From: Flavobacteriales bacterium
GTDB taxonomy: Bacteria; Bacteroidota; Bacteroidia; Flavobacteriales_D; Parvicellaceae
Assembly: GCA_020631555.1 (NCBI GenBank)
Contig: JAHDGY010000004.1
Location: 1-64,000, forward strand
Length of the DNA stretch: 64,000 bases
Reading direction: 5' to 3'
Shown: positions 13,326 to 50,600 of the stretch, in pieces
How the letters are laid out: every line of letters begins with the position of its first letter
How positions within the stretch are numbered: position 1 is the first letter of the stretch
Notes under the pieces: generated by a model
Seen by the model: the letters and a program-made list of their open reading frames with translations, nothing else
Database searches by the model: none
Told to the model about the DNA's origin: nothing
Program-made: the position numbers and the translations under genes

Positions 13326-13501
13326 AAGAACTGATTCAAATTTAATGTTGGTGCCTACCAACCGAAATAAGTGGGAACTCAAAAAGACTATTTTCCTACT
13401 CCGTAAAGACGATTGGTACGATTCTTTGGTTGCATTATCGGAAGTAAATACTTACCAAGAAAAACACAAATTACTTATTACCAGTTAAATGCAAAAAAAA
13501 A

Positions 13502-32689: not shown

Positions 32690-33079
32690 TTAAGCCTCGG
32701 AAATTTGTTTAGCCAATTGAGCTAAACGATCATGATCTATTTCCAACTTTGGTCTGGAAAAATTCATGTCTTCGACAGAGTTAATAGGTATTAAATGAAT
32801 ATGAGCATGAGGCACTTCTAACCCAATCACAGAGACACCTATTCGCTCACAGTCTATAACAGCTCTCATTTTACGTGCGACATCACGAGCAAACAAATTT
32901 ATTTTTGATAAGGTACTTTCAGGAAGATCAAATAAGTAATCAACTTCTTGCTTAGGAATAACCAGCGCATGACCTTCCACCAAAGGTGAAATATCCAAGA
33001 ATGCTAAAAACTCCTCCGACTCTGCTACTTTGTGACATGGTAATTCACCTGCCACAATTCGGCTAAATATCGAGGCCAT
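32690..33079 (-). CDS. HIT family nucleotide-binding protein
   Basis: Histidine-triad hydrolase or transferase with the motif PHAHIHLIP and a conserved N-terminal SIFSRIVAGELPCHKVAE. These enzymes act on AMP-conjugated substrates; the physiological substrate is unknown. The ATG at 33079 overlaps the greA stop by one base (TGATG), indicating coupled translation. The 129-residue length is normal. The stop is one base from that of convergent ruvC. Confidence 0.93.
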   Translation of the reverse strand: MASIFSRIVAGELPCHKVAESEEFLAFLDISPLVEGHALVIPKQEVDYLFDLPESTLSKINLFARDVARKMRAVIDCERIGVSVIGLEVPHAHIHLIPINSVEDMNFSRPKLEIDHDRLAQLAKQISEA

Positions 33080-33552
33080 CAACGAGTAATTTCAAGAACT
33101 TCAAATTCCATCACGCCATTAGGCACCTTAATCTCGGCAATTTCTCCTACTGCCGTACCCAAAAGTCCCTTAGCAATAGGTGAATCGACAGAAATCTTAC
33201 CAGTCTTCAGATTAGCCTCGCTTTCCGCCACTAAAGTATACTTTGCCTCCATTCCATTTTTAACATTCTTGATTCGAACCGTTGATAAAATGTAAACCTT
33301 GGACGTGTCCACCTGAGATTCATCAATTAATCTTGCATTTGCGAGCTTCTCCTTAAGTTTAGCCAACTTAGTCTCCATTAAACCTTGCGCCTCTTTAGCC
33401 GCATCGTACTCAGCATTTTCAGACAAGTCACCCTTATCTCGAGCTTCAGCAATTTGCTGCGATATTTTTGGCCTTTCGACATTCTCCAACTGAGAAATTT
33501 CATCTCTAAGTTTTTGAAGTCCTTCTTCTGTATAGTATGTTACTTGCGCCAT
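33079..33552 (-). CDS. greA: transcription elongation factor GreA
   Basis: GreA rescues backtracked RNA polymerase by stimulating transcript cleavage. The N-terminal antiparallel coiled coil carries the active acidic tip DKGDLSENAEYDAAKE, and the C-terminal domain has the FKBP-like fold ending in EFEVLEI. I chose ATG 33552 (MAQVTYYT), giving 157 residues, the usual length; the longer frame adds seven residues. It is followed directly by the HIT gene and preceded by a perfect stem-loop that probably separates it from the upstream outer membrane operon. Confidence 0.96.
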   Translation of the reverse strand: MAQVTYYTEEGLQKLRDEISQLENVERPKISQQIAEARDKGDLSENAEYDAAKEAQGLMETKLAKLKEKLANARLIDESQVDTSKVYILSTVRIKNVKNGMEAKYTLVAESEANLKTGKISVDSPIAKGLLGTAVGEIAEIKVPNGVMEFEVLEITR

Positions 33553-33573
33553 AAGCGAGTTTCCCAAATGCAA

Positions 33574-33597
33574 AGAATCCCGTTAAAACGGGATTCT
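33574..33597 (-). terminator. perfect stem-loop between the PorV-like gene and greA
   Basis: AGAATCCCG and CGGGATTCT form a perfect inverted repeat around TTAAAA (33574-33597). It lies 36 bases after the stop of the PorV-like gene and 21 bases before greA. Only a short T-run follows on the minus strand, so it is a modest intrinsic terminator or an attenuator between the two transcripts. Confidence 0.55.
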
Positions 33598-33632
33598 CAA
33601 TTCAATCCTAAATAATATTAGTCTAAATATAT

Positions 33633-34700
33633 CTATTTCACGTTAATTCTTAAACCCAAAGAATGAGTAATTCCAAACGCAGTAGACAATCGAGCACCAT
33701 AATCCAGAGATATTGTGCTCTCTTTAGACTTTCCTACCGGAAGATCTAATGAAAGTCCTCCAGACGGACCATTAAGCGCAGTAGCACTCCGCGCATCTTC
33801 TGCAAACATTCCTGGTTCGTACACATAGCCAGTACGTGCCTTGAAATGCGCTTTATCAAACTTAATATGATACTCCAGTCCTACACTTACTTGATCACGT
33901 CTGAACGCATTCGCAACAAATGCCCCACCAAGAGTCAAATTACTACTTTCTGAAAGCAGGAAATTATATGAAGCCCCTATAGATAAAAGAGACGGCAGCT
34001 CAAACGCGGCTGCATTCCTAGATCTTGTCGCTGTAAGACTAGTTATTGAATTTGATATATTCTCATCTAACCCATCACCAGTAAACCGCATTGGAGTACC
34101 AACATTCTTCAATGAAATCGCAATTTTAGTCTGATCTCTGTCTCCAGTAGCATATCGAATACCTGCATCAAACGCAACCCCGATGGCACTTACGTTTGTC
34201 AATGCTTCGCTAATTATTTTCGCATTAATTCCTGCCGATATCGACTCTGAAAATCGTTTTGCATATGCTAAACCTAAGTTAAAATTTGAAGGTGTAAAGT
34301 TTCCTATTCCCCCTTCGGGTGCATTAGTTCTAGTGATTTGGATATCCCCGAAACTTACACTCATCAAAGAAATTCCCAGTACCCCAGTTTCACCCAGCCG
34401 CTGACCCAATCCAAAAGAATTAACTCTAACTCCTGCATTTCCAAGCCAATTAGAAGTAGAAGCAAGAATTTCAGTTTTGTCTACAAACGCCAGACCTGCA
34501 ATATTTAAGAATGAAGATTCAATTCCATCAACGGAACTCAATCCTCCAAATCCCCATGCAGAGCTTCTAGCCCAAGGGTTTATTAACAACTGAACGGCAC
34601 CTGCTTCACCAGTCCTATCCTCATTACCGGCCTTAGAAGATCCAACGGACAAACTAACCAATAGCAGTGCAAGCAAACTGCATTTTATCGTTTTATTCAT
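33633..34700 (-). CDS. PorV/PorQ family outer membrane protein
   Basis: A FadL-like beta-barrel of about 355 residues with signal peptide MNKTIKCSLLALLLVS... cut after an SKA-like site. The N-terminal GEAGAVQLLINPWARSSAWG and FLNIAGLAF match the family pattern for PorV/PorQ, which in T9SS act as carrier (PorV) or sortase partner (PorQ). It lacks the DARAGGMGD-like and HWNPAKYAF-like stretches I associate with canonical PorV, so I regard it as a paralogue. It starts 29 bases after the 1392-residue secreted protein and is the last gene of the TonB-led operon. Partnership with that protein is inference. Confidence 0.8.
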   Translation of the reverse strand: MNKTIKCSLLALLLVSLSVGSSKAGNEDRTGEAGAVQLLINPWARSSAWGFGGLSSVDGIESSFLNIAGLAFVDKTEILASTSNWLGNAGVRVNSFGLGQRLGETGVLGISLMSVSFGDIQITRTNAPEGGIGNFTPSNFNLGLAYAKRFSESISAGINAKIISEALTNVSAIGVAFDAGIRYATGDRDQTKIAISLKNVGTPMRFTGDGLDENISNSITSLTATRSRNAAAFELPSLLSIGASYNFLLSESSNLTLGGAFVANAFRRDQVSVGLEYHIKFDKAHFKARTGYVYEPGMFAEDARSATALNGPSGGLSLDLPVGKSKESTISLDYGARLSTAFGITHSLGLRINVK

Positions 34701-34729
34701 GAAAGCCAATTTTAAATTAGGCACTTTTA

Positions 34730-37700
34730 TTAATAATCTTCAAGATCGGCTTGTCGCATCACTCCAAACCATTTCAAAATTCTTTCGCCAACATCTGGTA
34801 CCTTAACATGCATCAAATAGACACCACTGACAATTGGAACTTGTGCAAAATTCTTCAGGTCCCAATTAACAAAGGTTAAATCGTTGTCCTTTGATATAGA
34901 TTTCACTAAAGTTCCATCCAGCATATATATATCTATATCGCATAGCTTCGGTAGGTTAACAATCTTGATTTCGTTATCGTATCTATTCTCCTCATAACTA
35001 GAATATGCATAATAAGGATTAGGGACAACATTGATCAATTTCATCGCGCTGTCCATAACAACTCGATCTTTAGTCTTGGTCTTAAACTTATCCAAATTAA
35101 ACCTATACAAAGGATTCCAACTATTCTCCGATCCATTTAAATCCCCTAAATCTTGCCTTCCGTCAGGAGCATAACGAGAATATCGCTGCTTAGTCTGAAT
35201 AGTAATTGTTAGATCCGATTCAAGAAATTTAAACCCTGGCTCAACCGTCGGACAACCAACCCACAAACAAGACTCCCAAACCTTTTTGACGGCGGAATTT
35301 CCACCATCCATGAGTTTTGAGTGATTAAATACTGCGTTATCATACCTTGGCTGATACTTTCCCAAATTAGCTGTTGGTGCCTGATCAGCACGATGATTGC
35401 CGAAAATGTACAACCAGTGTTTACCTCCCCAAGCTACGTCACCACCTGGTAAATACATATCACTAGTTGGGTTAAATAACATGTCATCTCCATTACTACC
35501 TTTTAACCAAGAATCCTCGCCAAACGCTACGTTCAATCTCTCCCCCGTTTCCAAGGAAACAACATATCCAGGAAACCAACTACATCCGGTAGGTTGCGAC
35601 CCATTTGCTGTTGCTTCATTAGTTCCGGTGTTCCCATCTCTATCTACAGACGGACTAGGCTTGATACTCAACTTTCTGGTGCCACCAACCGAATTGGAAG
35701 GATCATCATGTGTTTCAACGACCACGCAACGTGTCCATTTTGATTTATCCGAAGTGAACACAATACTTATACTACCAAGCTTATCAAAGCTTTTATTCCA
35801 TAATCCAGAAACGGTTATACTCTTACCTCTAGGAGAATGCAAGGCCCCTCTTCCCTTAGAATAATTCTGATCATCCCCATAGGCTGTCATTTGATAGGGA
35901 GCGAATAAACCATCTGCAACCTTCTCGAAGTCTTCCTCAGGATCTACTCCACCGAAATCTTCCCAAACACAACTAGACTGCGCACTAGGTGTTTCTCCTT
36001 CCACACAGTCCTGAACTGTCCGTCCACTCCTGATCCAGTTACGGATAAAATTTCCATCAATATCACTAACCCCTCTAAACCACTTTGACTCTTTACCATT
36101 GGACACAGCATAATCCATATAAAAATCAACTCCTTCTGTATCAGATGTTTTAGCCGCCTTACTAGCATCATACCCCGCCTTACCAGCAAGAATATTAGGA
36201 GGCAGTAACGTTTCTTTATGATTATACTGACCTATTCCAATAGAAATCCCCCATTTTGGGATAATATGCTCTGTAAAACGGGCTATAGTTTGAGTGGATC
36301 GAACCGTATCGCCTTCAGTTAGATTAACGCAATACCAAGACGCACTGTCTAGTGCCTCGTTAGAATTATCTCCATTTCTCGGAAGGAACCTTAGCTCAAA
36401 ATCCCCACCAGCAACACTTAGCGGATCAACAACCTTAATATATACTGGTCCATATCCAGCCTCGTAGGTAAGCTCTTTTTGAAAACCGTCCGAAGCGATT
36501 TTATCCAAAACCTCTTGTGACAGCTTAAGCCCATACCCTCCGTTTCCTTTTCCCTCCAATCTGGTAACCGGAATTGCATCACCATACGACGCAACAGCTT
36601 CAGTTCCGTACTGCTCTGGTGACACTATATGGGGAATTGCTGTGTAAGTTCTTACATTGAACCGGCTTCTTAAATAAGGTTTCTTTTGTCCATCTAACTT
36701 ATCAGGCTTCAGCGGGTCAAATGTCTTGAAATTATTGTGTGCATAACTTACGGCCATAAAATAATATTCTTTATGGTTAATTAAAGCCTTATCGCCTTCA
36801 GCAAACTCGTCGTTAAATAACCTAAAACTATGACTAATCCCAGTATCCGTTCCAGCCACCATCAACTCCGGTTCCAAGACATTTAAAGCAGGGTTTAACT
36901 CGAAATTTATCAACTGCCCCACCGAATCTTCAATATCACATTGAAACACCAAGGCCGCTTTATTGGGATCTCCTAAATCAGAAGAACTAACAGATCTATC
37001 CTTCAACTGAAACACTTGATAACCTTGAAAACGAAACTTTTTATCAATATTCTTTACAGTAGTATCCGAACTAAAAATAAATGGATCTTCTTCCTCGTAG
37101 GATTCATCCGTACCAGAAAGCATGAAAATTAATTCCCCATCTAATTCCTGAATTGTCAAATCTGGCGCGATTGGACCATTCAACACTTCGAAACAATTAT
37201 CGAACAATGCCTGCGCTTTATCATCCGCAATTCTAACCTTCTCAACCGATAAGAAACTATTTGTAGAAGAAATTGCACGTGCATACACCACACCTACTGT
37301 AATATTATTCACTGCACCAGGTTCAAGACGGAACGGTCCAGCAGCTTGCACAAATCTTCTATCTCCAGCAGTATTTCCAGCACTCAATTCTGTCCAACTT
37401 CCCATTTGCACTCCCTCTGTTCCGAATGCGATTGGATCTGTATCTCCTGGAAAGGCATAATCTGTTGTTTGCTTTATCCCATTAATAGTTTTATCAACTC
37501 CAGATCCTCCATGATACAATGCCGACCCATCTTTCCATTTTCCGGTCATGTAATTGTAATAATCCACAGCTTTACTGGGGTCATCATTAACACCAGCAAT
37601 GTACCCCCCCACACCACTTCTTGTGATATGCATGAATCTCCTCATTCCAAACCGTTCATTATCTGCAACTCCATCACCATAGCCTACACCAATACCTTTG

Positions 37701-38908
37701 TACACGATCCCTTTTCCAGCAACTGCCTCCTGATAAGTGACACTTGTGTCCCCAACCGGTCCAGGATTATCAATCCCATCAGAATCCTGATAAGGCCCTT
37801 GAAAGAAATCAACCCCAATCGCAGGCGGATTGGGTCCAATAGCATTGCCAGCACCTGCATCATCTATCGGGTCACCGTTATACGCATATCCTAACCCTCT
37901 AGCCACATCACAACCAATAAAATCATCCTGAGAAGTTCCTATATCCGGGTCAACCCAAACGGCGAAATACGTTTCAGTCAGAGTCAACGTACCCTTATTC
38001 ACCATCTCATAATTATAAAAAGTCATGTCATTAACTTCATCACCGGTATTAAATGCGAAAGCCTGTGCCCTAATTTCCATACCAATAGGCTGACCTTTAC
38101 TTTCTGTATGTGCATTCCCCTTGTCATTAAAAATCCACCAATACGTATTGTCACCAAACAGAATCACTCGTTTATTGACACCACAATCATAGTTGTTGTT
38201 TATATCATAATAAGGATAATCGCCATCCCCCTCAGGATCGTATTCTAAATCGCCATCCCTATCGTAAAACGGAGCTAAAAAGTAATCTTGAAATTGATCT
38301 ACATCTCCATGAGCAGGCCAGTTAATAATTTCACTTGGTATAACATAACCAGCAAACTCTTCGGCTAGGCTACAAGTATTATCATTTTTACAATCCCAGT
38401 ATTCAGAAAACCTCTTCACTTCCTGTCGGTTCATTTGATAAAACCTGTCCCATCGCTTGCACTCTTCTGCAGTAATCTCAGCACTTCCATATCCAACACG
38501 GGTAGCATCCTCATCATCATTCACCGCATTGAATTTTCCTGATAACGGACCAGGCCAAAAGTCCTGACCTTGAGCAAATTGCATAGCAGCAAGTTTAAGC
38601 TGACCATTTGGATCTTTACCTCCAATCCAAAGGGCACCAGCAAAAATAACCCTGTTACCATCCTCCTTAGGCACCATATAACCCGCAATTCCACCAGCTC
38701 GGTTATACCATACCGATCCACCTGTGGTTAAAAATGCTTGAACGTTATTAAACTCCATTTGGACAACAGCGGTTGCAGCCGCACAATTTGCAGCTAGACC
38801 GCGGGTTGAATTAGATTCATCTGAATTTACAGGTTTCGGGGGATTCCAAGCATAACTTCCAATTACGCATAAACACCCCAAACCAGCTAATAATAATTTC
38901 GCTCTCAT
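34730..38908 (-). CDS. giant secreted protein with T9SS-like C-terminus
   Basis: A 1392-residue exported protein, not assigned to a named family. The signal peptide covers residues 1-20. The body is rich in glycine, aspartate and aromatic residues and has acidic loops (DRDGDLEYDPEGDGDYPYYD), as in calcium-binding surface proteins. The last 100 residues form a beta-rich domain beginning VVPNPYYAYSSYE, with IYMLDGTLVKSI and SGVYLMHVKV, resembling a T9SS C-terminal target domain but ending in an acidic ADLEDY tail. It lies between the TonB receptor (18 bases upstream) and the PorV-like gene (29 bases downstream), so the three are probably co-expressed. Confidence 0.82.
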   Translation of the reverse strand: MRAKLLLAGLGCLCVIGSYAWNPPKPVNSDESNSTRGLAANCAAATAVVQMEFNNVQAFLTTGGSVWYNRAGGIAGYMVPKEDGNRVIFAGALWIGGKDPNGQLKLAAMQFAQGQDFWPGPLSGKFNAVNDDEDATRVGYGSAEITAEECKRWDRFYQMNRQEVKRFSEYWDCKNDNTCSLAEEFAGYVIPSEIINWPAHGDVDQFQDYFLAPFYDRDGDLEYDPEGDGDYPYYDINNNYDCGVNKRVILFGDNTYWWIFNDKGNAHTESKGQPIGMEIRAQAFAFNTGDEVNDMTFYNYEMVNKGTLTLTETYFAVWVDPDIGTSQDDFIGCDVARGLGYAYNGDPIDDAGAGNAIGPNPPAIGVDFFQGPYQDSDGIDNPGPVGDTSVTYQEAVAGKGIVYKGIGVGYGDGVADNERFGMRRFMHITRSGVGGYIAGVNDDPSKAVDYYNYMTGKWKDGSALYHGGSGVDKTINGIKQTTDYAFPGDTDPIAFGTEGVQMGSWTELSAGNTAGDRRFVQAAGPFRLEPGAVNNITVGVVYARAISSTNSFLSVEKVRIADDKAQALFDNCFEVLNGPIAPDLTIQELDGELIFMLSGTDESYEEEDPFIFSSDTTVKNIDKKFRFQGYQVFQLKDRSVSSSDLGDPNKAALVFQCDIEDSVGQLINFELNPALNVLEPELMVAGTDTGISHSFRLFNDEFAEGDKALINHKEYYFMAVSYAHNNFKTFDPLKPDKLDGQKKPYLRSRFNVRTYTAIPHIVSPEQYGTEAVASYGDAIPVTRLEGKGNGGYGLKLSQEVLDKIASDGFQKELTYEAGYGPVYIKVVDPLSVAGGDFELRFLPRNGDNSNEALDSASWYCVNLTEGDTVRSTQTIARFTEHIIPKWGISIGIGQYNHKETLLPPNILAGKAGYDASKAAKTSDTEGVDFYMDYAVSNGKESKWFRGVSDIDGNFIRNWIRSGRTVQDCVEGETPSAQSSCVWEDFGGVDPEEDFEKVADGLFAPYQMTAYGDDQNYSKGRGALHSPRGKSITVSGLWNKSFDKLGSISIVFTSDKSKWTRCVVVETHDDPSNSVGGTRKLSIKPSPSVDRDGNTGTNEATANGSQPTGCSWFPGYVVSLETGERLNVAFGEDSWLKGSNGDDMLFNPTSDMYLPGGDVAWGGKHWLYIFGNHRADQAPTANLGKYQPRYDNAVFNHSKLMDGGNSAVKKVWESCLWVGCPTVEPGFKFLESDLTITIQTKQRYSRYAPDGRQDLGDLNGSENSWNPLYRFNLDKFKTKTKDRVVMDSAMKLINVVPNPYYAYSSYEENRYDNEIKIVNLPKLCDIDIYMLDGTLVKSISKDNDLTFVNWDLKNFAQVPIVSGVYLMHVKVPDVGERILKWFGVMRQADLEDY

Positions 38909-38926
38909 AATAACTTCAATTGTAAG

Positions 38927-41900
38927 TTAGAAATCCAATTTTGCACCAAGTCTAATACTTCTTGGCAACCCCAGATTAAAAGGGTTATTCACCTTCATAC
39001 TTTGCAATGTTCGATAAGTATCAGGATTATTAGATGTGTTAATCTCACTCTGTGAAGAAGGAGCCGCCAAAAATCCATCATCATCGGGAGACTTAGAATA
39101 ACCATAAACAGCATTTACATTACGAATACCGAGTACATTGAAACAGATTAGTGAAATATTCAAGTTAGCAGACCTTGCCCCATCCTTTCCAAACTTCAAC
39201 TTAAAACTTCTATCAATAGCTAGGTTCATATTGAACTGCCCAGGCAATCTTGCACCCAACGGCGTGCCTTCTAGTAAACCATCACTGCTAGCTATCAACG
39301 CCCTATTCCACAACTGCCGACTAGCAGAGTAAGGTAATCCAGACGAGTAATCTCCTACAACGTTCAACCCAGTATTCTTAAGCACATCCACACCAAACCA
39401 CTTAGGCCCATTGTAAGCAGTCCCTTCTCCGAATCGGTAATCCAAAACAATATTTACCTTGTGCCGGCGATCCCGCGAGGTAGGGAAAATTGTCCGTAAA
39501 TTACCGAGCCCATTACTTGCCAATGTAGAAGATGCATTTGCACTAGATCCCGTAGCCGACGCAAATTGCAAAGTGTAATTAGCACGTAACTGAATATTTC
39601 CACTTCTTCTTAAATCGTATTCTATCGTCATTCCCTTAACAGTACCAAAATCTATATTCCTGTAGGTCATGTAATTTCCAGGATAAGCTCCAGTAATAGC
39701 AGATAAAGCGACTTGATCCCTTTGCTCCCGGTAAAAAGCAGAAATTTTCAAAGAAGACGATTGCGTCAACACTTGCTGAAAGCCAAGTGAATAATCGATC
39801 GTTTTTTCAGGTTTCAAACTAGGGTTATTAATAATCGGATTACTTAATTCTCTCAAAAACAAATACTTTATCGGCTCAATCCTAAGTCCTGAAGTTGGAC
39901 GTTTAGTTAGCACATCATAGTGGGCGAAAAACAAAGCTTCATCTGAAATTGGGAATGAAAATGCAACCCGAGGCATTACATTTACCTGCGGAGTGTAATC
40001 TTCAAAACCATCTGCTGCAATTTCCTTAGTAGCATCCACTCCCTGCGCCAGGAATGGCTCCGGCCTACCTGTGACCCCACCAATTGAATTGGGATCTGAA
40101 ACCTCATTACCATCAGCATCGTACCAAGTATCCTCAAACCTGTAACCGGTAATTGACGACGGGTTGCTAATATCATTAACATACACCATAGCATTTTCAT
40201 TAACCGAAGCAGGATGCGACACTTCTACGCTATTTAGACTACTCACATCCTTAACCGATCTCCCCTGATACGTTGAATATAAATCTTTCAACACCTGCTG
40301 ATTAGCATCAAACCTATCGACTCTTACCCCAACGTTAAAAATGATATCATCGAAGGCAAATTTATCCATTATGTATCCAGAAACGTAAACCGGCTCGAAT
40401 GCCCCAATTGGTCTTGCTTTAAATTCAGTACCTTCGATAGTTTCCGTAAAAAAATCATCGAACGAAGGTTTACCCTTTAACGGTTTACCTGTATAATCGT
40501 AGCCATAGTAGTATACAAAGTTTTGTCCCTCATTTAATAACTCATCCGCACTAAACATATCCAACGAGAACATACTCGGATCATAAGCATCTATATTCAA
40601 AAAGTCACTACCATCAGGGTTCATTCCCAACTTATTCCTTAAATTTCTATCGAAATAACGTTGCGCCGATAAAGTGACGAGCCTGTCGTAAGTCACCTGA
40701 GTATAACTTCCTTGATTCGAATAATTTGGACTCGCCTCGTTTATTGGCTCCATATGAGCATTTTGCAGTCTTCTCATTTGATCCCATAGACCATACGCTC
40801 TATTACGCGTGATGCCTGAAAAGGAACTTGCACCGAGTGTAAAGTACCTATCTGATCGTTGTTCGTATTCAAACCCTACTCCAACCGCATGGTTACCAAT
40901 ATCAGCTGAACCACTAGCTGTAACCCTAAATTGAGACGTGTTACTTACCGAATACTGTCCCCCAGGCTCTCCGTAGTTATACCACATGTCATATGTCCTA
41001 ACCGGAACATCTCCATTTCTTAAACCACGATATGTGGTAACGTCATCAAGTTGGGTGATATTTGAAAAGTTGTTAAAAATATACTCTGTATAATTAGCAA
41101 GAACTGGATTGATGCTAGACGGTGTAAAAACGACAGACGTATCCTCATAACCCTGATGAACAAACTGTTTGCTTTCCACGTCAAAAGTATACGACGGCCT
41201 GCTAAATACATCAAACTTTCCTACATAACCATAATTAAAAAAATTGTCTTGATGCACCCTATCCTGAGTTAGGTAACTATTTCTTGAGTAGTCCACCATC
41301 AAAGTATAATTGGCATTTGATACTCCTCCGCTCTTCTTTGTCTTTGCTTCCTCTGCATCCACAGGCGAATTAGAAAAACGTTGCGTAAAACGTCCAAAAG
41401 CTCTCCAAACATGATCTCGCTGCTCAGCGTAATTATTAAAATTCATTAAGCTACCGCTCCTATCGTAGAGATTATCGTAATCAAATGAACCTGTACCACC
41501 AAAACTCAGGTCCATATTTTTTGACAAGTTAACCGTCAATTTGGCCGTCATCGAGCCCCTTGTTCGTCTATTGTTTTGCGAAAAGCTAACCTTTTTCAAA
41601 TCTTCTGGCCCCAAATAATCAGCCGCATACCTTGCCACGGTGTCGCTCTCTGTTTTCTCTATAAAATATGGATTAGCGGTCAATCTATTTATTCCGGCAT
41701 CAGACAAAACGTAGTGATCGACTCCAAAAGGACGTTTATCTATAACGTCTGTAAAGTTTGCCGAAAGAAAGAAACCCATTAATGGATCTTTCTTAACTCC
41801 AGAGCTATCCTTTCGAACCCAAAGCGGACCAGAAATATAACCCTCCAACATATTATAACCTTGTTGATCTAGACCATAAACATTATCCCCGGCCTTAAAA

Positions 41901-42637
41901 CCAGAAGATAAAACTTCGACCCCACCGAACACGTCGTTTGTAGCCCCTCTGGTTGTTATCGAAATCACACCACCGGTAATATCACCATAGTTAGCCGGAA
42001 TCCCCCCAAGTACAACTGAAACCTCTTCCATTGCAGACCGAGGAATATTGGCAGATCCCCGAACCTTTATTCCATCAATGAAATAGTAAGTATCACCGCT
42101 TCTACTACCTCTTACCGAATTAATATTTCCATTTGCATCAGTTGAGACCCCACCAACCGTTGCGGCTACCGAAGCAGCAGATCTCCCGGGCATTTTCGCA
42201 ATATCATCACGTGTAATGGTACTCTTAGTTCCACCATCCTTATCAATTAACGGCACCTTATAGCCCTCTATAATTACATCATCTAAAGTGGTACCCTCTT
42301 CCTGCATTTTGAAGTCGTAGAAAGTAATCTTGTCCGCAGAAACTCTCACACCCTGAACTTTCGTCGATGCAAAACCAATGCTCGTAACTGTGACATCATA
42401 CTCCCCAGGAGGAATTGCACTAATTAAAAAGACACCATCAAAATTGGAAGCTGCTCCACCTTTAAGGACACCTCCTTGTTCCATCTTGACATTCGCAAAT
42501 GGTACCGGCTCTCCTGTAGATTTATCAATAACTTTCCCCTTGAGCTTCCCTGTTCCTGGCTGTGCAAAACCAGAGGTCCACGACATGACCAAAACGAAGG
42601 CCAAGGCGATGTACCTACCAAACATTACTTCTTTCAT
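38927..42637 (-). CDS. TonB-dependent receptor with carboxypeptidase-regulatory-like domain
   Basis: A 1236-residue outer membrane receptor. A signal peptide (1-25) is followed by a carboxypeptidase-D regulatory-like beta domain (about 28-115, with GKVIDKSTGEPVPFANVKM), a plug domain (about 120-260, with PGRSAASVAATVGGV and SVVLGGIPANYGDITGGV), and a 22-strand-type barrel to the terminal LPRSIRLGAKLDF. No SusD-like partner follows; the next genes are the giant secreted protein and the PorV-like protein. It may serve in substrate uptake or as an assembly partner, but the sequence does not decide. The 292-base upstream spacer should contain its promoter. Confidence 0.9.
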   Translation of the reverse strand: MKEVMFGRYIALAFVLVMSWTSGFAQPGTGKLKGKVIDKSTGEPVPFANVKMEQGGVLKGGAASNFDGVFLISAIPPGEYDVTVTSIGFASTKVQGVRVSADKITFYDFKMQEEGTTLDDVIIEGYKVPLIDKDGGTKSTITRDDIAKMPGRSAASVAATVGGVSTDANGNINSVRGSRSGDTYYFIDGIKVRGSANIPRSAMEEVSVVLGGIPANYGDITGGVISITTRGATNDVFGGVEVLSSGFKAGDNVYGLDQQGYNMLEGYISGPLWVRKDSSGVKKDPLMGFFLSANFTDVIDKRPFGVDHYVLSDAGINRLTANPYFIEKTESDTVARYAADYLGPEDLKKVSFSQNNRRTRGSMTAKLTVNLSKNMDLSFGGTGSFDYDNLYDRSGSLMNFNNYAEQRDHVWRAFGRFTQRFSNSPVDAEEAKTKKSGGVSNANYTLMVDYSRNSYLTQDRVHQDNFFNYGYVGKFDVFSRPSYTFDVESKQFVHQGYEDTSVVFTPSSINPVLANYTEYIFNNFSNITQLDDVTTYRGLRNGDVPVRTYDMWYNYGEPGGQYSVSNTSQFRVTASGSADIGNHAVGVGFEYEQRSDRYFTLGASSFSGITRNRAYGLWDQMRRLQNAHMEPINEASPNYSNQGSYTQVTYDRLVTLSAQRYFDRNLRNKLGMNPDGSDFLNIDAYDPSMFSLDMFSADELLNEGQNFVYYYGYDYTGKPLKGKPSFDDFFTETIEGTEFKARPIGAFEPVYVSGYIMDKFAFDDIIFNVGVRVDRFDANQQVLKDLYSTYQGRSVKDVSSLNSVEVSHPASVNENAMVYVNDISNPSSITGYRFEDTWYDADGNEVSDPNSIGGVTGRPEPFLAQGVDATKEIAADGFEDYTPQVNVMPRVAFSFPISDEALFFAHYDVLTKRPTSGLRIEPIKYLFLRELSNPIINNPSLKPEKTIDYSLGFQQVLTQSSSLKISAFYREQRDQVALSAITGAYPGNYMTYRNIDFGTVKGMTIEYDLRRSGNIQLRANYTLQFASATGSSANASSTLASNGLGNLRTIFPTSRDRRHKVNIVLDYRFGEGTAYNGPKWFGVDVLKNTGLNVVGDYSSGLPYSASRQLWNRALIASSDGLLEGTPLGARLPGQFNMNLAIDRSFKLKFGKDGARSANLNISLICFNVLGIRNVNAVYGYSKSPDDDGFLAAPSSQSEINTSNNPDTYRTLQSMKVNNPFNLGLPRSIRLGAKLDF

Positions 42638-42929
42638 GTACTAAATCAATTGTTCACAAGCCAAATAGGCTCAATTCAATAAAGTTAATTTTCAACAAAA
42701 AATTAAATATAAAACAATATTGAACTTGTCAATCGGGCATTAATCTTCAAAACAAAATCACTACTAAGACTTTTCTTGGACTTCTCTTACCGATTCATAG
42801 CGGTAAAATTAGTGATCAATTAGACAAGTTCCAAGGCCGAAAATAGACATAAGTATAAAACGTCCACCGGCAATCCAACAAAACACCCCGATAAATAACT
42901 AACAACCAATTTGTTACATTCTAAGAATA
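42638..42929. promoter_or_regulatory. intergenic region upstream of the TonB receptor, with nested inverted repeats
   Basis: AT-rich, non-coding. It contains three nested complementary arms: GAACTTGTC (42722-42730) with GACAAGTTC (42823-42831), ATCACTA (42757-42763) with TAGTGAT (42810-42816), and TTACCG (42787-42792) with CGGTAA (42801-42806). Together they could fold into a branched or interrupted hairpin of about 110 bases. On the minus strand this would be an untranslated leader of the TonB operon or a terminator region of the upstream 96-residue gene. No -33/-7 promoter pair of good quality was found. Confidence 0.35.
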
Positions 42930-43220
42930 CTATTTCGTGAACCACCGCTTCAAAAAAAATGTTCTTTTATTTCTATTCAACCTATTAGATTTTCGTTGAT
43001 TCCGACGCATTCGTTTTCTGGTTGCTTTGGATTGCATCCTCTTATGTCGTTTACCCAACTCTGTTTCTGCTTCTCTCTGTCCTTTTTCACGTTGTCTCTC
43101 TTTCTTCTCAAGTTCCTTTAACCTCTTTTTAGTCTGTCCAAAACATGGGTCTCCTCCGCAAAAAACAAGCAAGCCCACAACTATCAATACTTTCTGGAAA
43201 TATTTACCGTTTCTCACCAT
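42930..43220 (-). CDS. small, highly basic exported protein
   Basis: A 96-residue protein with an N-terminal hydrophobic segment (KVLIVVGLLVFCGGDPCFGQ) that looks like a signal peptide or anchor. A mature part dominated by Lys, Arg, Glu and Gln follows (KKRLKELEKKERQREKGQ and further RK-rich helices). It is probably one long amphipathic, positively charged helix. I recall similar small basic proteins in Bacteroidota but none with a known role. It is divergent from the Rieske-like gene across 45 bases. It precedes the TonB operon on the same strand and is separated from it by 292 bases. Confidence 0.65.
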   Translation of the reverse strand: MVRNGKYFQKVLIVVGLLVFCGGDPCFGQTKKRLKELEKKERQREKGQREAETELGKRHKRMQSKATRKRMRRNQRKSNRLNRNKRTFFLKRWFTK

Positions 43221-43274
43221 ATTCTCTCAACCTTGTGTATTTTGTGCTTCATTTAACTGCTACAGATGAAATAT

Positions 43275-43682
43275 ATGAAACATATATTGATTTTGGCAAT
43301 TGTCCTCTGTACGACATGTAGAAAGCCAGATCAGCAGATTCCATATGTTCCAGTAAATTTAAACTTAAACCTTGACCTTCCGCAATACACAACGCTGCAG
43401 ATCATTGGAAATTGGTTATACGTTTCGGGGGGATCTAAAGGTATAATCCTTTACCGAAGAGATTCTGATAATGTTGTAGCTTTCGATCGGCATTGTACTT
43501 ATGATGTTAATGCCAATTGTAATCCTGCAGAGGTCAAACAAGATAATGTAACCGTTTTTTGTTCTTGCGATGGTAGTGAGTACTCCATCATGAGTGGTGC
43601 TGTTACAAAGGGACCTGCCAGTAATCCACTCATGCAATACCAAACTACACTACAAAATAATACGCTGACGGTTTTCAATTAA
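43275..43682 (+). CDS. Rieske-fold-like lipoprotein with altered ligand set
   Basis: A small exported protein (135 residues from the ATG at 43275; ATG 43266 is also possible), with a hydrophobic leader ending in VLCTTC, likely a lipoprotein. The remainder looks like a Rieske [2Fe-2S] domain: FDRHCTYD (first ligand loop), VFCSCDGSEYSIMSGAVTKGPASNPL (second loop and flap) and a final beta strand LTVF. The second-loop CxCHG of true Rieske proteins reads CSCDG, so the histidine is lost; Cys77, Cys85, Cys99 and Cys101 remain. It may bind a different metal centre or only keep the fold. Its stop codon overlaps the stop of the convergent PorU gene by 8 bases. Confidence 0.7.
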   Translation: MKHILILAIVLCTTCRKPDQQIPYVPVNLNLNLDLPQYTTLQIIGNWLYVSGGSKGIILYRRDSDNVVAFDRHCTYDVNANCNPAEVKQDNVTVFCSCDGSEYSIMSGAVTKGPASNPLMQYQTTLQNNTLTVFN

Positions 43683-46600
43683 TAATAACCAGCTTTTCAA
43701 GCTGCTCAGCCAAATCACCATTCTGATTGAGAACTTTGATCTTATATATATAAGTTCCTCTACCCAACTTATCTCCAAAATCATCCTTACCATCCCAGTA
43801 TATTGGATCAACCCGATACCCCTTAGTATGTACTGTTTGATCAATTGTTTTAACAACCTTGCCAGAAATGGTAAATATCTGGACATGCACATTCAGATAA
43901 CTGCAAGCTTGGTTATGTTCGAACATAAACTGCGTACGGTCTGAAAATGGATTTGGGTAATTTAACACGTGTTCTAATGCCATTTTGGAAGATTTAGCAA
44001 CAACAAATTCAGTAACCTCTTTCGAAGAGTTATTGTGAACATCCCAAACTTTTAAGGACAAGGAATGTCTCCCTTCAGCCAACTCTGAAAAGGGGTATTC
44101 AACAATTCCTGATTTGTACGTGTCCAAATCCGCCTGATAGTAGTCATTCAACACTAACGAACGTTTCGTATCCTCATCCAAAACAGCCACAATATCATGA
44201 CCAATACCATTGCCTACAGTGTTTATTCCATTTTCATCTGAAATTTTTGCAAAAATCGATGGATTTTGATCCGTAATGCCTCCGGATACGAATTTTTCAT
44301 CATTCATAAATAATCGAATATCAGGCCCCATATTGTCAGATGGACTACTGGTATCCTTGCCTCCTATTATAAGTGATTGATCATAACCTCCTGCATCAAT
44401 CGAATTGTTGTGCGCGTAATAACTAATTCTACCTGAGCCGAAATTGTAACCAATATCCTTAGGTACCACAAATGAAAACTTGAACTTCCCATTGACTATT
44501 GTTGCCTTACCTCTGTATATCAACCCTGTCCTTGCCATGAATTCAAGTCCTGCAGTCGAGCCTTTATCGTTGCCGAGAGTTTTCATCTTTTGCTCCTTAT
44601 CGTAAACCATCGGATAGACAAAACCATTAAAACCCTTCATAACAATGCTATCATCATCGAGAACTGCTCCCTGCACAGTAACCAAACTCAATGCTCCAAC
44701 GGTATCAGTGATCGAATCAATTGCAATATTATTAATGGATGTTGATACTACATTATATCTTGGTAAGGCAAGACGTACCGCAGGATCACCAATGAGAGTA
44801 AATCTTCTAAAGTTGTCTGCACCTTCCGGGCCCAAGCTGGCGAATCTATTCTTTGTTTCTAACAGTATTTCGCCAAGTGTAAGAGGCGTTCCATCTTCTG
44901 ATCTGTTGAATATTACATCGTAAAACTCTACTGAAATTGCGGCATTAACGTATGCGTAGACAACTCGTGTTGTTGTAAATAATGCAATCCCTCCTCCTTT
45001 GGGGTTTAACAATACTAATTCACCAGCGGAAGTCCTATTGGGGTCATCAAATCTTGTGAATTCGCATGTAGCCGTCATGAATAACGGTAATTTTCGAAGG
45101 TTGGTCCAGCCAGTAATTGTTTTCAAATCTAAAACCTTCTCATGTGCCCAACCTGTTTCGCCTCCGTGCCCCAAATAATTCACAACGAGTGCTCCACTTT
45201 GCACCCTTTGCTTTAACGTCTCTGCAACCTCTGGATACCTTTGCCCTCCCGAAGAAGAAACCTGTTTGTACGAATCAAGATACAACTTGTGAATGTTAAC
45301 ACTGGGATTCTTGGACTTTACCAGATCATAAATACCCTCCGACTGACGAAAAAAAACGTTACCATCTTCATCATCCCCTACAATCGTCATCACATTTCTC
45401 CAGCCGCCATAGATAGACTCGGCATTCTCTTCGCAATGAGCTTGACTAGTCGGAGCCTTCTCATAATTTGAGTAAATCTTGATTTTATTGACCACCCCAA
45501 AAGCTTCTTCCAATGTTTTGCAAGGGATACGTCCAACTGCAATATCCAATAACTCTTCATTCTTGTTGGATTCGGAATCATCAAGCAACCCAAAATAATC
45601 ATCGGTCATAAATGAATAAAGTGGAGACAAGCTTTCAGAAGACTGAAAAACAGGAATATAATTAGTATTTGGGGAAAGATAATTCCTTTGGTCATAAGAA
45701 GCATCTCCAAACAACAATAAATACTTTGGCGGATCAACACCAGAACTATTCGCTCTGTCATAAAACATTTTGCATAACCTTCTAATAGCCATCGGATCTC
45801 TCATTCCACTTGAAAACTCATTATAAACTTGCTGATCTGTAACTAAGTGAACCGACAATCCTTCGCTTTCATGAACCTTCTTTAATTCCTCCGCTGCCGG
45901 CCGAAACTTCGAATGTGTCACAATCAGCATCTGCGCATTGCCAAGACCGTGCAAGTTTTGACTTTTAACTTCTCCAAAAAAACTTGGAACTTTTGCACTG
46001 CTCCTGTTCCAAACAACAAACGTGCGTAGGGAATCTGCGTCCATCCTGAACAAAGCTTTATTACCACTAATATTGTAATTTACCTTTTGGGGGCTAGTGT
46101 GCTCAGTAACCTCCCAAATTTGTTCTATACCAGTTGGGCTGGTGATCTGATATTGGTTCACATTGCCTAATCCAACCGATCTAGTATGTCTAAAATCCAA
46201 TTGTTTGCCAGCAAACACAAGATCCCGGTAAACGTTCAGTTCAATATAGTCCAGCCAGCCCACATTGGATTCAACCCCGTTTTTGTCATACTCTACTGAA
46301 ATCTTAACTTGATCCGTCTTTGGCACAAACGGTAAGTCAAGATTCCCAACAGTTGCGTACAACGGATGTTGCACACTACTAATTATTTTAGGAAGCGCCG
46401 TCTTTTTCTTTGCATTGGATTGCAATTCCCGCACATTGAAATAAGTACTTCCAACTTTAGATTGACCAATAAACCTAACTCTAGCCGTTGAAGTTGAATC
46501 TTTACTAATATTAGCGATAGAAAACTCATAATCCATTTGCGTTTGCACGTCATATCGTTCACCAAACCACTGACTACCTGACCTCAGAAAGTTATATATT

Positions 46601-47571
46601 TCCTTTTCATGCAACACCCAATCATTATATGTCGCGATGGTTTGTGTAGGTTGTTTATTTGAGGTTATGCCTTCTTCAACCTTTTTTTGCTTGCGACTTC
46701 CATCAATGTTTACAAAATAGAATGAGGTGTCGCTGTAAACATTAGTCAAGTGCCTAAACTGATTGCCCGATTGACGCCAAGAATGTGGACCCTTGGCGTA
46801 AAAAATCACATAATCCCCCGGACCAAACACGCCATCGTTCCCGTCTTGAACAAATATTGAATTCTGAGCCAAATCATCTATTGGAACAACTGAATTTTTG
46901 ATGGATAGCATACCCTGACCATTGCCAAAAACATGAATTGACGACGAAGCCAACGTTTCAACTTCTACCCCAATACTTTCTATAAAATCGTAGGTAAGCA
47001 CATGAATACCGTCATCAACGACCCCAATTTTAAACCATTTACCACTTCCACTGGAAAGGACCGAATTTCCAACAAAACCATTAGATATACCTCTTGAAGT
47101 AATTGGATGTTGAGTCTTGAAGTCTATATCTGCGCTAATTAGCTTTTCGTAAATTCCTGCTCGCTTTCGGAGGGGACACACACTCCAAATCAAAAAAGTT
47201 TGATTTCTTTCAACTCCAGTTCTTAACCTCAATTGAAATTCACCGTTTTCGAATCCTAAATCCTTCAACACCTTGGCCTCTTGGTTGGAACATGATTCAA
47301 ACACAAAGCTAGTGGATTCAACTACCAGATTTGAAGGATAACCTGCCAATTTTTGGCCTTTCCCTCCAATCCAAGGTAACCCAGTTTTATCATATTGCCC
47401 CAACTTAACTCCTAGTGTTAGGATTTCCTTTCCTACAGAATCGTGAACACGCTTCTCTCCTTCCCAAACAACACTTGGGACACTAAGTGTTTGCGACAAA
47501 GCATTGCCTATGAATATCGCCACGCAACACACCAGAACAAATACCCTTTTACATGCAACTGTCATAAACAT
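43675..47571 (-). CDS. PorU-type T9SS sortase, C25 family peptidase (copy 2)
   Basis: A 1298-residue gingipain-type (C25) protein of the PorU kind, which cleaves the C-terminal signal of T9SS cargo and attaches it to the surface. A signal peptide (1-26) is followed by beta domains, then the C25 peptidase region (about 560-960) with TDQQVYNEFSSGMRDPMAIR, the catalytic His in NYLGHGGETGW (near residue 800) and the catalytic Cys in MTATCEFTRFDD (near 834). It ends in an FlgD-like/T9SS C-terminal domain with YNPF-like YPNPFSDRTQF and VKTIDQTVHTKG. It is a tandem paralogue of the next gene, with high similarity throughout, and both keep the catalytic dyad. 91 bases separate them. Confidence 0.9.
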   Translation of the reverse strand: MFMTVACKRVFVLVCCVAIFIGNALSQTLSVPSVVWEGEKRVHDSVGKEILTLGVKLGQYDKTGLPWIGGKGQKLAGYPSNLVVESTSFVFESCSNQEAKVLKDLGFENGEFQLRLRTGVERNQTFLIWSVCPLRKRAGIYEKLISADIDFKTQHPITSRGISNGFVGNSVLSSGSGKWFKIGVVDDGIHVLTYDFIESIGVEVETLASSSIHVFGNGQGMLSIKNSVVPIDDLAQNSIFVQDGNDGVFGPGDYVIFYAKGPHSWRQSGNQFRHLTNVYSDTSFYFVNIDGSRKQKKVEEGITSNKQPTQTIATYNDWVLHEKEIYNFLRSGSQWFGERYDVQTQMDYEFSIANISKDSTSTARVRFIGQSKVGSTYFNVRELQSNAKKKTALPKIISSVQHPLYATVGNLDLPFVPKTDQVKISVEYDKNGVESNVGWLDYIELNVYRDLVFAGKQLDFRHTRSVGLGNVNQYQITSPTGIEQIWEVTEHTSPQKVNYNISGNKALFRMDADSLRTFVVWNRSSAKVPSFFGEVKSQNLHGLGNAQMLIVTHSKFRPAAEELKKVHESEGLSVHLVTDQQVYNEFSSGMRDPMAIRRLCKMFYDRANSSGVDPPKYLLLFGDASYDQRNYLSPNTNYIPVFQSSESLSPLYSFMTDDYFGLLDDSESNKNEELLDIAVGRIPCKTLEEAFGVVNKIKIYSNYEKAPTSQAHCEENAESIYGGWRNVMTIVGDDEDGNVFFRQSEGIYDLVKSKNPSVNIHKLYLDSYKQVSSSGGQRYPEVAETLKQRVQSGALVVNYLGHGGETGWAHEKVLDLKTITGWTNLRKLPLFMTATCEFTRFDDPNRTSAGELVLLNPKGGGIALFTTTRVVYAYVNAAISVEFYDVIFNRSEDGTPLTLGEILLETKNRFASLGPEGADNFRRFTLIGDPAVRLALPRYNVVSTSINNIAIDSITDTVGALSLVTVQGAVLDDDSIVMKGFNGFVYPMVYDKEQKMKTLGNDKGSTAGLEFMARTGLIYRGKATIVNGKFKFSFVVPKDIGYNFGSGRISYYAHNNSIDAGGYDQSLIIGGKDTSSPSDNMGPDIRLFMNDEKFVSGGITDQNPSIFAKISDENGINTVGNGIGHDIVAVLDEDTKRSLVLNDYYQADLDTYKSGIVEYPFSELAEGRHSLSLKVWDVHNNSSKEVTEFVVAKSSKMALEHVLNYPNPFSDRTQFMFEHNQACSYLNVHVQIFTISGKVVKTIDQTVHTKGYRVDPIYWDGKDDFGDKLGRGTYIYKIKVLNQNGDLAEQLEKLVIIN

Positions 47572-47662: not shown

Positions 47663-50600
47663 TTAATTCAGAATCACCAATTTCTCCATTTCCTCAGCCA
47701 CATCGGCTTGCTCATTTAACACCTTGATCTTGTACACGTATACCCCTCTACCTAAATTGTCACCAAAATCATCCCTACCATCCCAACTTATTGGATCAGC
47801 CCTGAACCCCTTAGTATGCACAACCTGATCAATCGTTTTTACAACCTTCCCTGAGATTGTAAAAATCTGTATCTGAACTTTCAAAAAGTTGCAGACCTGA
47901 TTATGCTCAAACATAAATTCAGTTCTATCAGTAAACGGATTTGGATAGTTTAACACATGATCCAAAGCAATAAGAGCGGATTTAGCAACTACAAACTCAG
48001 TAACCTCACGGCTTGAATTATTATGAACGTCCCATACCTTCAAAGACAAGGTATGCTTCCCTTCGGACAATTTAGAAAACGGATACTTTACTTGACCAGA
48101 CTTATAAGTATCAATATCTGCACTGTAATAATCGTTGAGTACAATTGAATTTTTAGTCTCCTCATCCAGGACAGCAACAATATCATGACCAATTCCATTT
48201 CCAACCGTGTTGATTCCGTTTTCGTCCGAAATCTTTGCAAATATTGATGGGTTTTCATCCGTTATTCCGCCAAAAACAAATTTCTCATCATTCATATATA
48301 GCTCAACTTCAGGACCAACATCATCCGAAAAATTTGAATTATCGGTACCCCCAATAACCAAAGATTCATCTAATCCTGTCCCGTCAACTTGACCATTCTG
48401 TGTGTAATAACTTATTCGACCAGGTCCAAAATCATAGGAAATATCCCTAGGCACGACAAATGAAAAACTAAACTTGCCTTTCTTAACAGTCGCTTTACCT
48501 TTATATATTCTATTGGCCCAAGTCTCAAATGGCAAGGATCCTTTTGAACCTTTATCATTTCCTAAAGTCTTACGCTGCAAAACTTTATCAAATACAGTAG
48601 GATATACAATACCATTAAAATTATCCATAAGCTCTCCGTTCATATTTCGCACCTCCCCCTCTACGGTTACCAAATTTAAAGCTCTGGCTGTGTCGGTAAT
48701 AGTATCATGAGCAAGCCCATTAATTTTTGTTGTAACCACATTGTGTTGCGGTAACGCCAAACGAATGGCAGGATCGCCTATAAGTGAAAATCTCCTGTAG
48801 TTATTATGCAAATTCGAATTGGCCGCAACAAAGGCATTCTTTGTTTGCTTATAGATTTCTCCTAAAGTACGAGGTTTAGAGCCTTCTTTTTCAAAGACAT
48901 TATCGTAAAATCGGTAAGTCAGTTGAGCATTCGGTCCGGCGTACACAACGCGAGTTGTCGTAAATAATGCAATGGCCCCACCTTCCGGATTCAACAATAC
49001 TCTTTCCCCAGCCGATACTCTGTTTGGGTCATCAAATCTGGTAAATTCGCACGTAGCAGTCATGAACACCGGAAGTCTTCTCAAATTCCTCCAATTATTA
49101 ATCGTGTTCAAATCTAACACACGTTCATGCGCCCAACCAACTTCACCTCCGTGCCCTAAATAATTTACAAGCAACGCTCCTGTCTCGACCCTTCTTCTAA
49201 GCGCCTCGGAAACTCCTGGATACCTTTGTCCACCTGGAGTTGATTGTTGTTTGTAAGCGTCCATGTAGAGCTTTTGAACATTCAAACTCGGACTATTCGT
49301 ATTTATTCGAACACTCACCTCTTCAGACTGGGTAACGAATTGATCATTATCCTCATCGTCCGCAACGAGGCAAACCATATTTCTCCAGTCTCCAAATCTA
49401 GTCTGATCATCAGTATTACAATGCACGGTAGTGGAGCTCGACTCGCCATACCCCAAGTACACTTTAATTTTATTCACCACTCCTAAAGCTTCTTCCAAGG
49501 TTTGACAAGGAATTCGTCCAACAGAAATATCCATCAGATCTGAATTTTTATCTGAATCTTGATCATCCAACAGCCCATAAAAATCGTCTGTTATAAAAGA
49601 GTTTAAAGGAGACAAGCTCTCATCGGAATGAAAAACAGGTACGTAATTTGAATTAGGTGAAGTATAATCGCGTTGGTCATAGGAGGCGTCACCAAACAGC
49701 AAAAGATGTTGAGGCATTTCGGTCGAATCTACCGCCCGATCATAGAACATTTTGACAAATCTTCTAATCGCAATTGGATCCCGCATACCACTCGAAAACT
49801 CATTGTAAACCTGATCGGTAGTGGCAACATGAATAACCATTCCCTCACTTTCATGAACCTGAGCCAACTCTTCGGCAGCAGGCAAAAATTTGGGATGAGA
49901 AACGATAACCATATCCACCTTTCCTAAACCATGTAAGTTCTGATGCTGAACCGCACCATGCGACACTGGAACTTTGACATTACTATTATTCCAGGCTACA
50001 AACGTGCGCAACGAATCCGCATCAACCTTAAAACTCCCCACACCACCGCTAAACGTTAAGTCAACTACTTGTGGTTCATTTGGATTCGTCACCTCCCAAA
50101 GTTGGTCTATTTGACTAGCGTTAATAATCTCGAATTCTGCAACATTACCGTTACCGACCGAATTCGTATGCCTAAATTGAAGTTGATTTGTTCCGTATAC
50201 CAAATTTCGGTACAAGTTCACTTCAATATAATCCAACCAACCAACATTGGAAGGCACGCCCAATTTGTTATAATTAACAGAGAAATTGATATTGTTAGAC
50301 GACGGCTTAAAAGGCAAATCTATAACCACCGGCTTTCCCACATCAGGATAATCTGCATCGCCACCACTTTTATCAATAGATTTCGTATCACCTGTATTTG
50401 AAAATGTTTCGGTCACAGAATATTCCGACATCCCAGTTTTAGATGAACCAACGAATCGAACCTTTGCATAGGCAGTGGAATCTTGAGTCACGTCAGTAAT
50501 TGAAAAACCATACTTCAGGGTAGTTTGAACATCAAATTTGTCCCCAAACCATTGGTTTCCGCTTTTCAAAAAATTCTCATTTTCGTCTTCGTGCAAAGCC

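Follow-up and report, generated by a model that had tools for sequence, protein, structure and literature searches.

What would a TonB-dependent receptor, a giant secreted protein and a PorV-like barrel do together in one tight run of genes, and do the two sortase genes of the T9SS that are found close by take part in it? This is the question raised by the locus considered here, which lies in a window of 64,000 nucleotides (the whole stretch of DNA that was analysed) from a genome of the Flavobacteriales. The answer that we favour, with fair but by no means full confidence, is that the trio would form one surface complex, in which its own barrel would carry the uncleaved giant and keep it beside the receptor, as a lid or a ligand-capturing subunit. 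The features on which the argument bears are the following.

38927 to 42637, minus strand: TonB-dependent receptor (TBDT), 1236 residues, CarboxypepD_reg and TonB Plug domains; first gene of the trio
34730 to 38908, minus strand: giant secreted protein, 1392 residues, pI 4.68, signal peptide-like N terminus, no Pfam family
36509 to 38791, minus strand: head of the giant, residues ~40-800, from conservation between species and the AlphaFold2 model
34979 to 36451, minus strand: middle module of the giant, residues ~820-1310, from the comparison of paralogs and species
34733 to 35047, minus strand: C-terminal domain of the giant, residues ~1288-1392, predicted PorZ-like beta-sandwich, discrete CTD class
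33633 to 34724, minus strand: PorV/PorQ-family barrel of the trio clade, likely carrier or anchor; an ATG start is possible at 34700
43266 to 43682, plus strand: Rieske-domain gene encoding a small protein, between PorU-b and the receptor; context, not a member of the trio
43675 to 47571, minus strand: PorU-b sortase, above the NF033707 cut-off; context
47663 to 51553, minus strand: PorU-a sortase, above the NF033707 cut-off; context

The three genes of the trio form the tight minus-strand run that an earlier note on this DNA had described. The gap between the receptor and the giant is of 18 bases, and the one between the giant and the barrel is of 29 bases when counted from the barrel ATG at 34700, or of 5 bases from its GTG start, which gives a barrel of 363 residues. 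The receptor is indeed a TonB receptor, both the CarboxypepD_reg and the TonB Plug domains being found in a Pfam scan. On the minus strand, transcription runs through PorU-a, PorU-b, the receptor, the giant and the barrel, and then through GreA and HIT genes, while gldJ and murF are found on the far side of the sortases, with SprA beyond. The trio had been placed immediately beyond the sortases, which is not the case: about 1.04 kb separates the end of PorU-b (43675) from the start of the receptor (42637), and this interval holds the Rieske gene, on the plus strand and convergent with PorU-b. An Rfam scan of positions 33000-44000 gave no match, and a promoter and terminator scan returned fewer promoter-like sites than in shuffled sequences. 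A plasmid origin was considered and rejected, no match being found among 72,556 plasmids.

Conservation of the trio

Relatives of the giant were found in 135 of the 297 genomes that we sampled across the phylum, and in 117 of the 120 genomes sampled in the order, where all 97 good assemblies have one. On named contigs, the closest giants are those of Flavobacteriales, for example Crocinitomicaceae and Vicingaceae. The trio is present, among others, in two culturable relatives, Brumimicrobium oceani (L169) and Crocinitomix algicola (L181). Neighbourhoods were annotated by similarity to the window proteins, and gene order was counted for the giants that had at least 4.5 kb available upstream and at least 1.6 kb downstream. 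The order TBDT, giant, PorV-like barrel, all on the same strand, was observed for 26 of 28 phylum-sampled giants and for 46 of 59 giants on named contigs (mostly Flavobacteriales), with median gaps of 20-43 bases. The earlier note had suspected that such triads occur elsewhere in the phylum and had asked for a search of conserved neighbourhoods; the linkage of the three genes is present in relatives and comes out of this search intact. Within the class, GreA and HIT are the conserved downstream neighbours of the trio.

The exceptions to this order come mostly from orphan giants, or from a further giant placed after the barrel. Orphan giants of about 1306-1344 residues, with neither receptor nor barrel, were observed at L128, L130, L132, L186, L204 and L206, and at least some of them belong to an older subfamily with a head type of its own. 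At L148, a shorter giant-like ORF (11992-13989, 665 residues) lies directly downstream of an orphan giant.

The T9SS translocon SprA is present in 135 of the 135 giant-bearing genomes, and a giant in none of the 67 genomes devoid of SprA, out of the same 297 genomes, which are not independent samples. This co-occurrence supports an export of the giant by the T9SS, although a hypergeometric value computed from such related genomes is not to be read literally. The trio is conserved across a large part of the phylum, and it seems to be undescribed: our literature searches, which covered open-licence PMC papers, found no account of it.

Head and middle of the giant

The giant has a mass of 153.8 kDa, its N terminus looks like a signal peptide when the sequence is read by eye, and a Pfam scan detected in it no family, no repeat and no known adhesin domain. 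The head, modelled over residues 1-870, gave an AlphaFold2 model with a mean pLDDT of 85.5 and without a close known fold. An enzymatic head was considered and rejected, the Foldseek matches to glycosidases and phosphorylases being of low TM (at most 0.22).

The head is the part that is better conserved between species (mostly 38-74% identity per 50-residue block) and divergent between paralogs. For the middle, mean identity between species is 23-39% in most 50-residue blocks, with a single block at 63%. Several genomes carry at least two giants, and paralogs with different heads within one genome share near-identical middle modules or C-terminal parts (L129/L130, L134/L135, L137, L138, L167/L172). 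The middle that is exchanged is among the least conserved parts of the giant between species. In G400, which is a single contig where each giant copy has distinct flanks on both sides, an orphan giant located about 0.47 Mb away from the operon giant shares 1493 bp with it at 99.7% (residues ~820-1317). By its head, this orphan falls with full support into one group with the orphans of G403 (77%) and G394 (63%), and in its tail the identity with the operon giant is lost again (63% to the operon type, 65% to the G403 orphan). The giants of G338 share 1886 bp at 99.6%, in two places of one contig that are 2.66 Mb apart, those of G392 share 1911 bp at 100% and those of G339 2787 bp at 98.9%; the L167/L172 pair follows the same pattern at the protein level. 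Furthermore, in at least 11 draft genomes (G362, G350, G353, G391, G352, G368, G346, G358, G364, G376, G406), two giant copies break at an identical query position, between 791 and 1065, as would be expected if the sequence that follows were a shared repeat. The giant paralogs of G394, G403, G298 and others have no near-identical middle, and only one giant is seen in the window genome (87% complete). Taken together, these alignments indicate that the middle modules are homogenised by recurrent gene conversion, which was unexpected. Most genomes are metagenome assemblies, and single cases could be assembly artefacts.

This leads to a broader reading, which we hold with low confidence: the receptor and the carrier may be a platform shared by interchangeable giant lids, the heads of which would give ligand specificity, while the middle would be kept identical by gene conversion in order to fit the platform, with platform and lids co-diverging between species. 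If true, TonB import would have a modular form of a new kind, with lids that are exported by the T9SS and anchored by a barrel in the place of the SusD lipoproteins. The homogenised middle modules also amount to a natural experiment, from which one could learn what part of the giant has to fit its partners.

The giant could also be an adhesin, a surface lattice or a coat, the receptor and the barrel serving only its assembly, without any nutrient import. We find this unlikely: such a role would suit a large acidic surface protein whose paralogs share middle modules, and domain exchange is known in T9SS surface proteins and adhesins of Porphyromonas gingivalis (PMC5266723), but what constantly precedes the giant is a TBDT with a Plug domain, and the giant has neither the repeats nor the known adhesin domains looked for in the Pfam scan. 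Since the TonB receptor is this constant partner, a giant that captures a ligand or caps the receptor is suggested, as in the surface complex that we favour; the lid role itself would follow from gene order, the head contributing only its matches of low TM (0.22).

The barrel, the tail and their pairing

The barrel belongs to the PorV/PorQ family, as had been proposed, with 124.5 bits for NF033709 (cut-off 90). It stays far below the cut-offs for PorV itself (NF033710, 64.8 against 250 bits), PorQ (NF033711, 61.1 against 220 bits) and PorV2 (NF052325, 36.1 against 325 bits), and the true PorV (contig C81), PorQ (C135) and PorV2 (C60) are all found elsewhere in the same genome. In a tree of 50 sequences, the trio barrels (26 rows from several families) form one clade with a support of 92/91, apart from PorV (100/98), PorQ (99/98) and PorV2 (100/99). 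A canonical PorV role for this barrel was rejected on the model cut-offs and the tree.

Outside the class, three genomes (G132, G184 and G183; L257-L275) carry 10 to 17 PorV-family genes each, most of them in receptor-cargo-carrier operons, with cargos of 637-1282 residues. Because these genomes carry many such trios, the window giant can be seen as one member of a broader receptor-cargo-carrier class.

Of the giant as first described, its 1392 residues and its acidity stand, and the T9SS-like nature of its tail holds only weakly. The tail scores 14.1 bits for TIGR04183 (type A), below the cut-off of 23, which about 105 other tails of the window genome exceed. A full NCBIfam scan gave no TIGR04131 (type B) match at E <= 0.1 and a weak likeness to the PorZ tail. 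Giant tails nevertheless show the type A order of elements, namely PNP, GxY and a conserved K (a nearly invariant lysine). Residues 790-1392 were modelled with AlphaFold2 (71 sequences, pLDDT 86.6); a single PDB entry, PorZ (5m11), matches this model with E < 0.001, over ~100 columns, and 5m11 is also the sole match of a sequence profile. We built a tail profile, A4, from 41 trio tails. Scores of 126 bits or more were confined to giants in the window genome and in four genomes of the Flavobacteriales, where the next tails, including those of PorU, stay at 37 or below. In G132, outside the class, the scores are bimodal, with ten matches at 83 bits or more, the next at 60 and then 45 or less; all ten of these strong tails have a PorV-family gene in their operon. 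On these models and profiles, the giant tail is a distinct CTD class with a predicted PorZ-like fold. Pairwise distances among the ten G132 trios are correlated, with r 0.65 for barrel and tail, r 0.75 for barrel and receptor and r 0.77 for body and receptor (p ~0.001 or less in each case), a result that does not distinguish interaction from the joint duplication of whole operons. The proposal that one giant beside a TonB receptor has a PorV-family carrier dedicated to it is supported, as the linkage is conserved, the barrel has its own clade and the tail class pairs with the carrier, which would presumably bind it.

What would then become of the tail? PorZ and PorU keep theirs, PorQ holding PorZ and PorV holding PorU (PMC11285876, PMC5562754). 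As the giant tail resembles the uncleaved PorZ tail, its delivery to PorU for cleavage appears to be the less likely fate. Its length of ~100 residues is in the range reported for uncleaved tails (96 and 108) and above that of cleaved ones (67-88), a fit that is suggestive only. The giant could still be an ordinary cargo, which the canonical PorV would carry and PorU would process as they do type A proteins, while the barrel would serve the receptor or be an unrelated porin. The type A order of elements, the PorZ-like fold and the orphan giants that have no adjacent barrel are in line with this, but a tail that misses the type A cut-off passed by so many others in its genome, and that is strictly paired with a separate barrel clade in 10 of 10 cases in G132, makes it quite improbable.

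In the surface complex with its own carrier, which remains our preferred reading, the giant would be exported by Sec, and then through SprA by means of a C-terminal domain distinct from type A. The trio barrel would take the tail inside the translocon and then retain it, as in PorQ:PorZ and PorV:PorU, and, with no cleavage by a sortase, the giant would be kept on the surface by non-covalent contacts. It would sit there on or next to the receptor of its own operon, as an extracellular lid or for ligand capture, in a SusD-like role. In the PorV mechanism, the loops of PorV engage the cargo tail inside SprA, and tail and carrier then leave together (PMC10994853), and type B tails have dedicated PorP/SprF carriers, for which cognate cargo and surface anchoring were demonstrated (PMC12618676, PMC9143113). 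Because of this carrier mechanism, of the cognate type B shuttles and of the tail and clade evidence, extraction and retention of the giant by the barrel are the most likely. Orphan giants devoid of their own barrel would mean that one barrel serves several giants, or that some giants use another carrier.

In the current view of T9SS carriers, PorV serves type A and PorP/SprF serve type B. If our reading is true, the trio would add a third carrier-cargo class: a widespread clade of barrels in one-to-one pairing with tails of a distinct class and with a TonB receptor, one genome holding about ten such trios. It would tie the T9SS to nutrient or signal uptake and explain many PorV/PorQ-family genes that are annotated without a function. 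The trios also supply ready-made cargo-carrier pairs on which specificity can be tested.

The neighbouring sortases and the known systems

Both sortases are PorU, with 1266 and 1274 bits for NF033707 (cut-off 420); they are 58% identical over their full length, and the His and Cys motif regions are retained in both. The coupling of the trio to these twin sortases, which the earlier note had singled out, does not survive the comparison with other genomes. It was rejected on the matches listed for the 120 order genomes: among these, no PorU lies closer to a giant than ~35 kb (G317 and G330), and the two are otherwise further apart or on separate contigs. In the same listed matches, a second high-scoring PorU is found beyond the window genome only in G297 and G318, and neither of these has its twin PorU on the contig of the giant. 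The canonical porV directly follows porU in 10 of 10 other genomes (including L234/L241-type rows); in the window genome, it lies on contig C81 (L004), not beside PorU. Since PorU and the giant are apart elsewhere, twin PorU are rare and porV usually follows porU, the proximity is a lineage-specific arrangement, a local accident. That the second PorU and the trio form a specialised secretion or attachment line is therefore very improbable, as it has for it a proximity seen in the window genome only and two intact-looking PorU copies, and against it the absence of this proximity from the matches listed for the other order genomes, the rarity of twin PorU, the opposite-strand Rieske gene in between and the common occurrence of the trio in single-PorU genomes.

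Four known systems can be compared with the trio. In SusC/SusD (RagA/RagB), a TonB receptor gene is likewise directly followed by the gene of a surface protein. Membership in this system was considered and rejected: neither SusC nor SusD models matched the receptor or the giant (NCBIfam, Pfam), the receptor having no SusC-type match in the NCBIfam scan. Unlike SusD, the giant appears to be exported by the T9SS and is probably anchored by a barrel instead of being lipidated.

The type B CTD and PorP/SprF of Flavobacterium johnsoniae share with the trio a shuttle gene placed directly downstream of the cargo gene, and these shuttles pair with their cognate cargos, some crosstalk with orphan ones being seen as well (PMC12618676). 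The trio differs in that its barrel is of the PorV/PorQ family, its tail has no TIGR04131 match and a TonB receptor precedes the cargo.

The same genome also holds, on contig C60 (L003, L007), a third C25 protease that adjoins PorV2; this is the PorU2/PorV2 pair of NCBIfam (NF052324/NF052325), for which our search of open-licence papers found no publication. It is like the trio in being a second case of a PorV-family barrel beside a T9SS surface protein, but the trio has a separate clade and a separate partner, and its barrel is below the PorV2 cut-off.

Finally, PorQ:PorZ and PorV:PorU of Porphyromonas gingivalis also associate a PorV-family barrel with a large secreted protein, and it is the fold of PorZ that the modelled giant tail matches. 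PorZ and PorU retain their tails, and it is the barrel that keeps them on the surface (PMC5562754, PMC11285876), as we propose by analogy for the giant. The partner in the trio is, however, a giant without a close known fold, encoded in the operon of a TonB receptor, rather than a sortase or an LPS-delivery protein, and its barrels form a separate clade, with many copies per genome outside the class.
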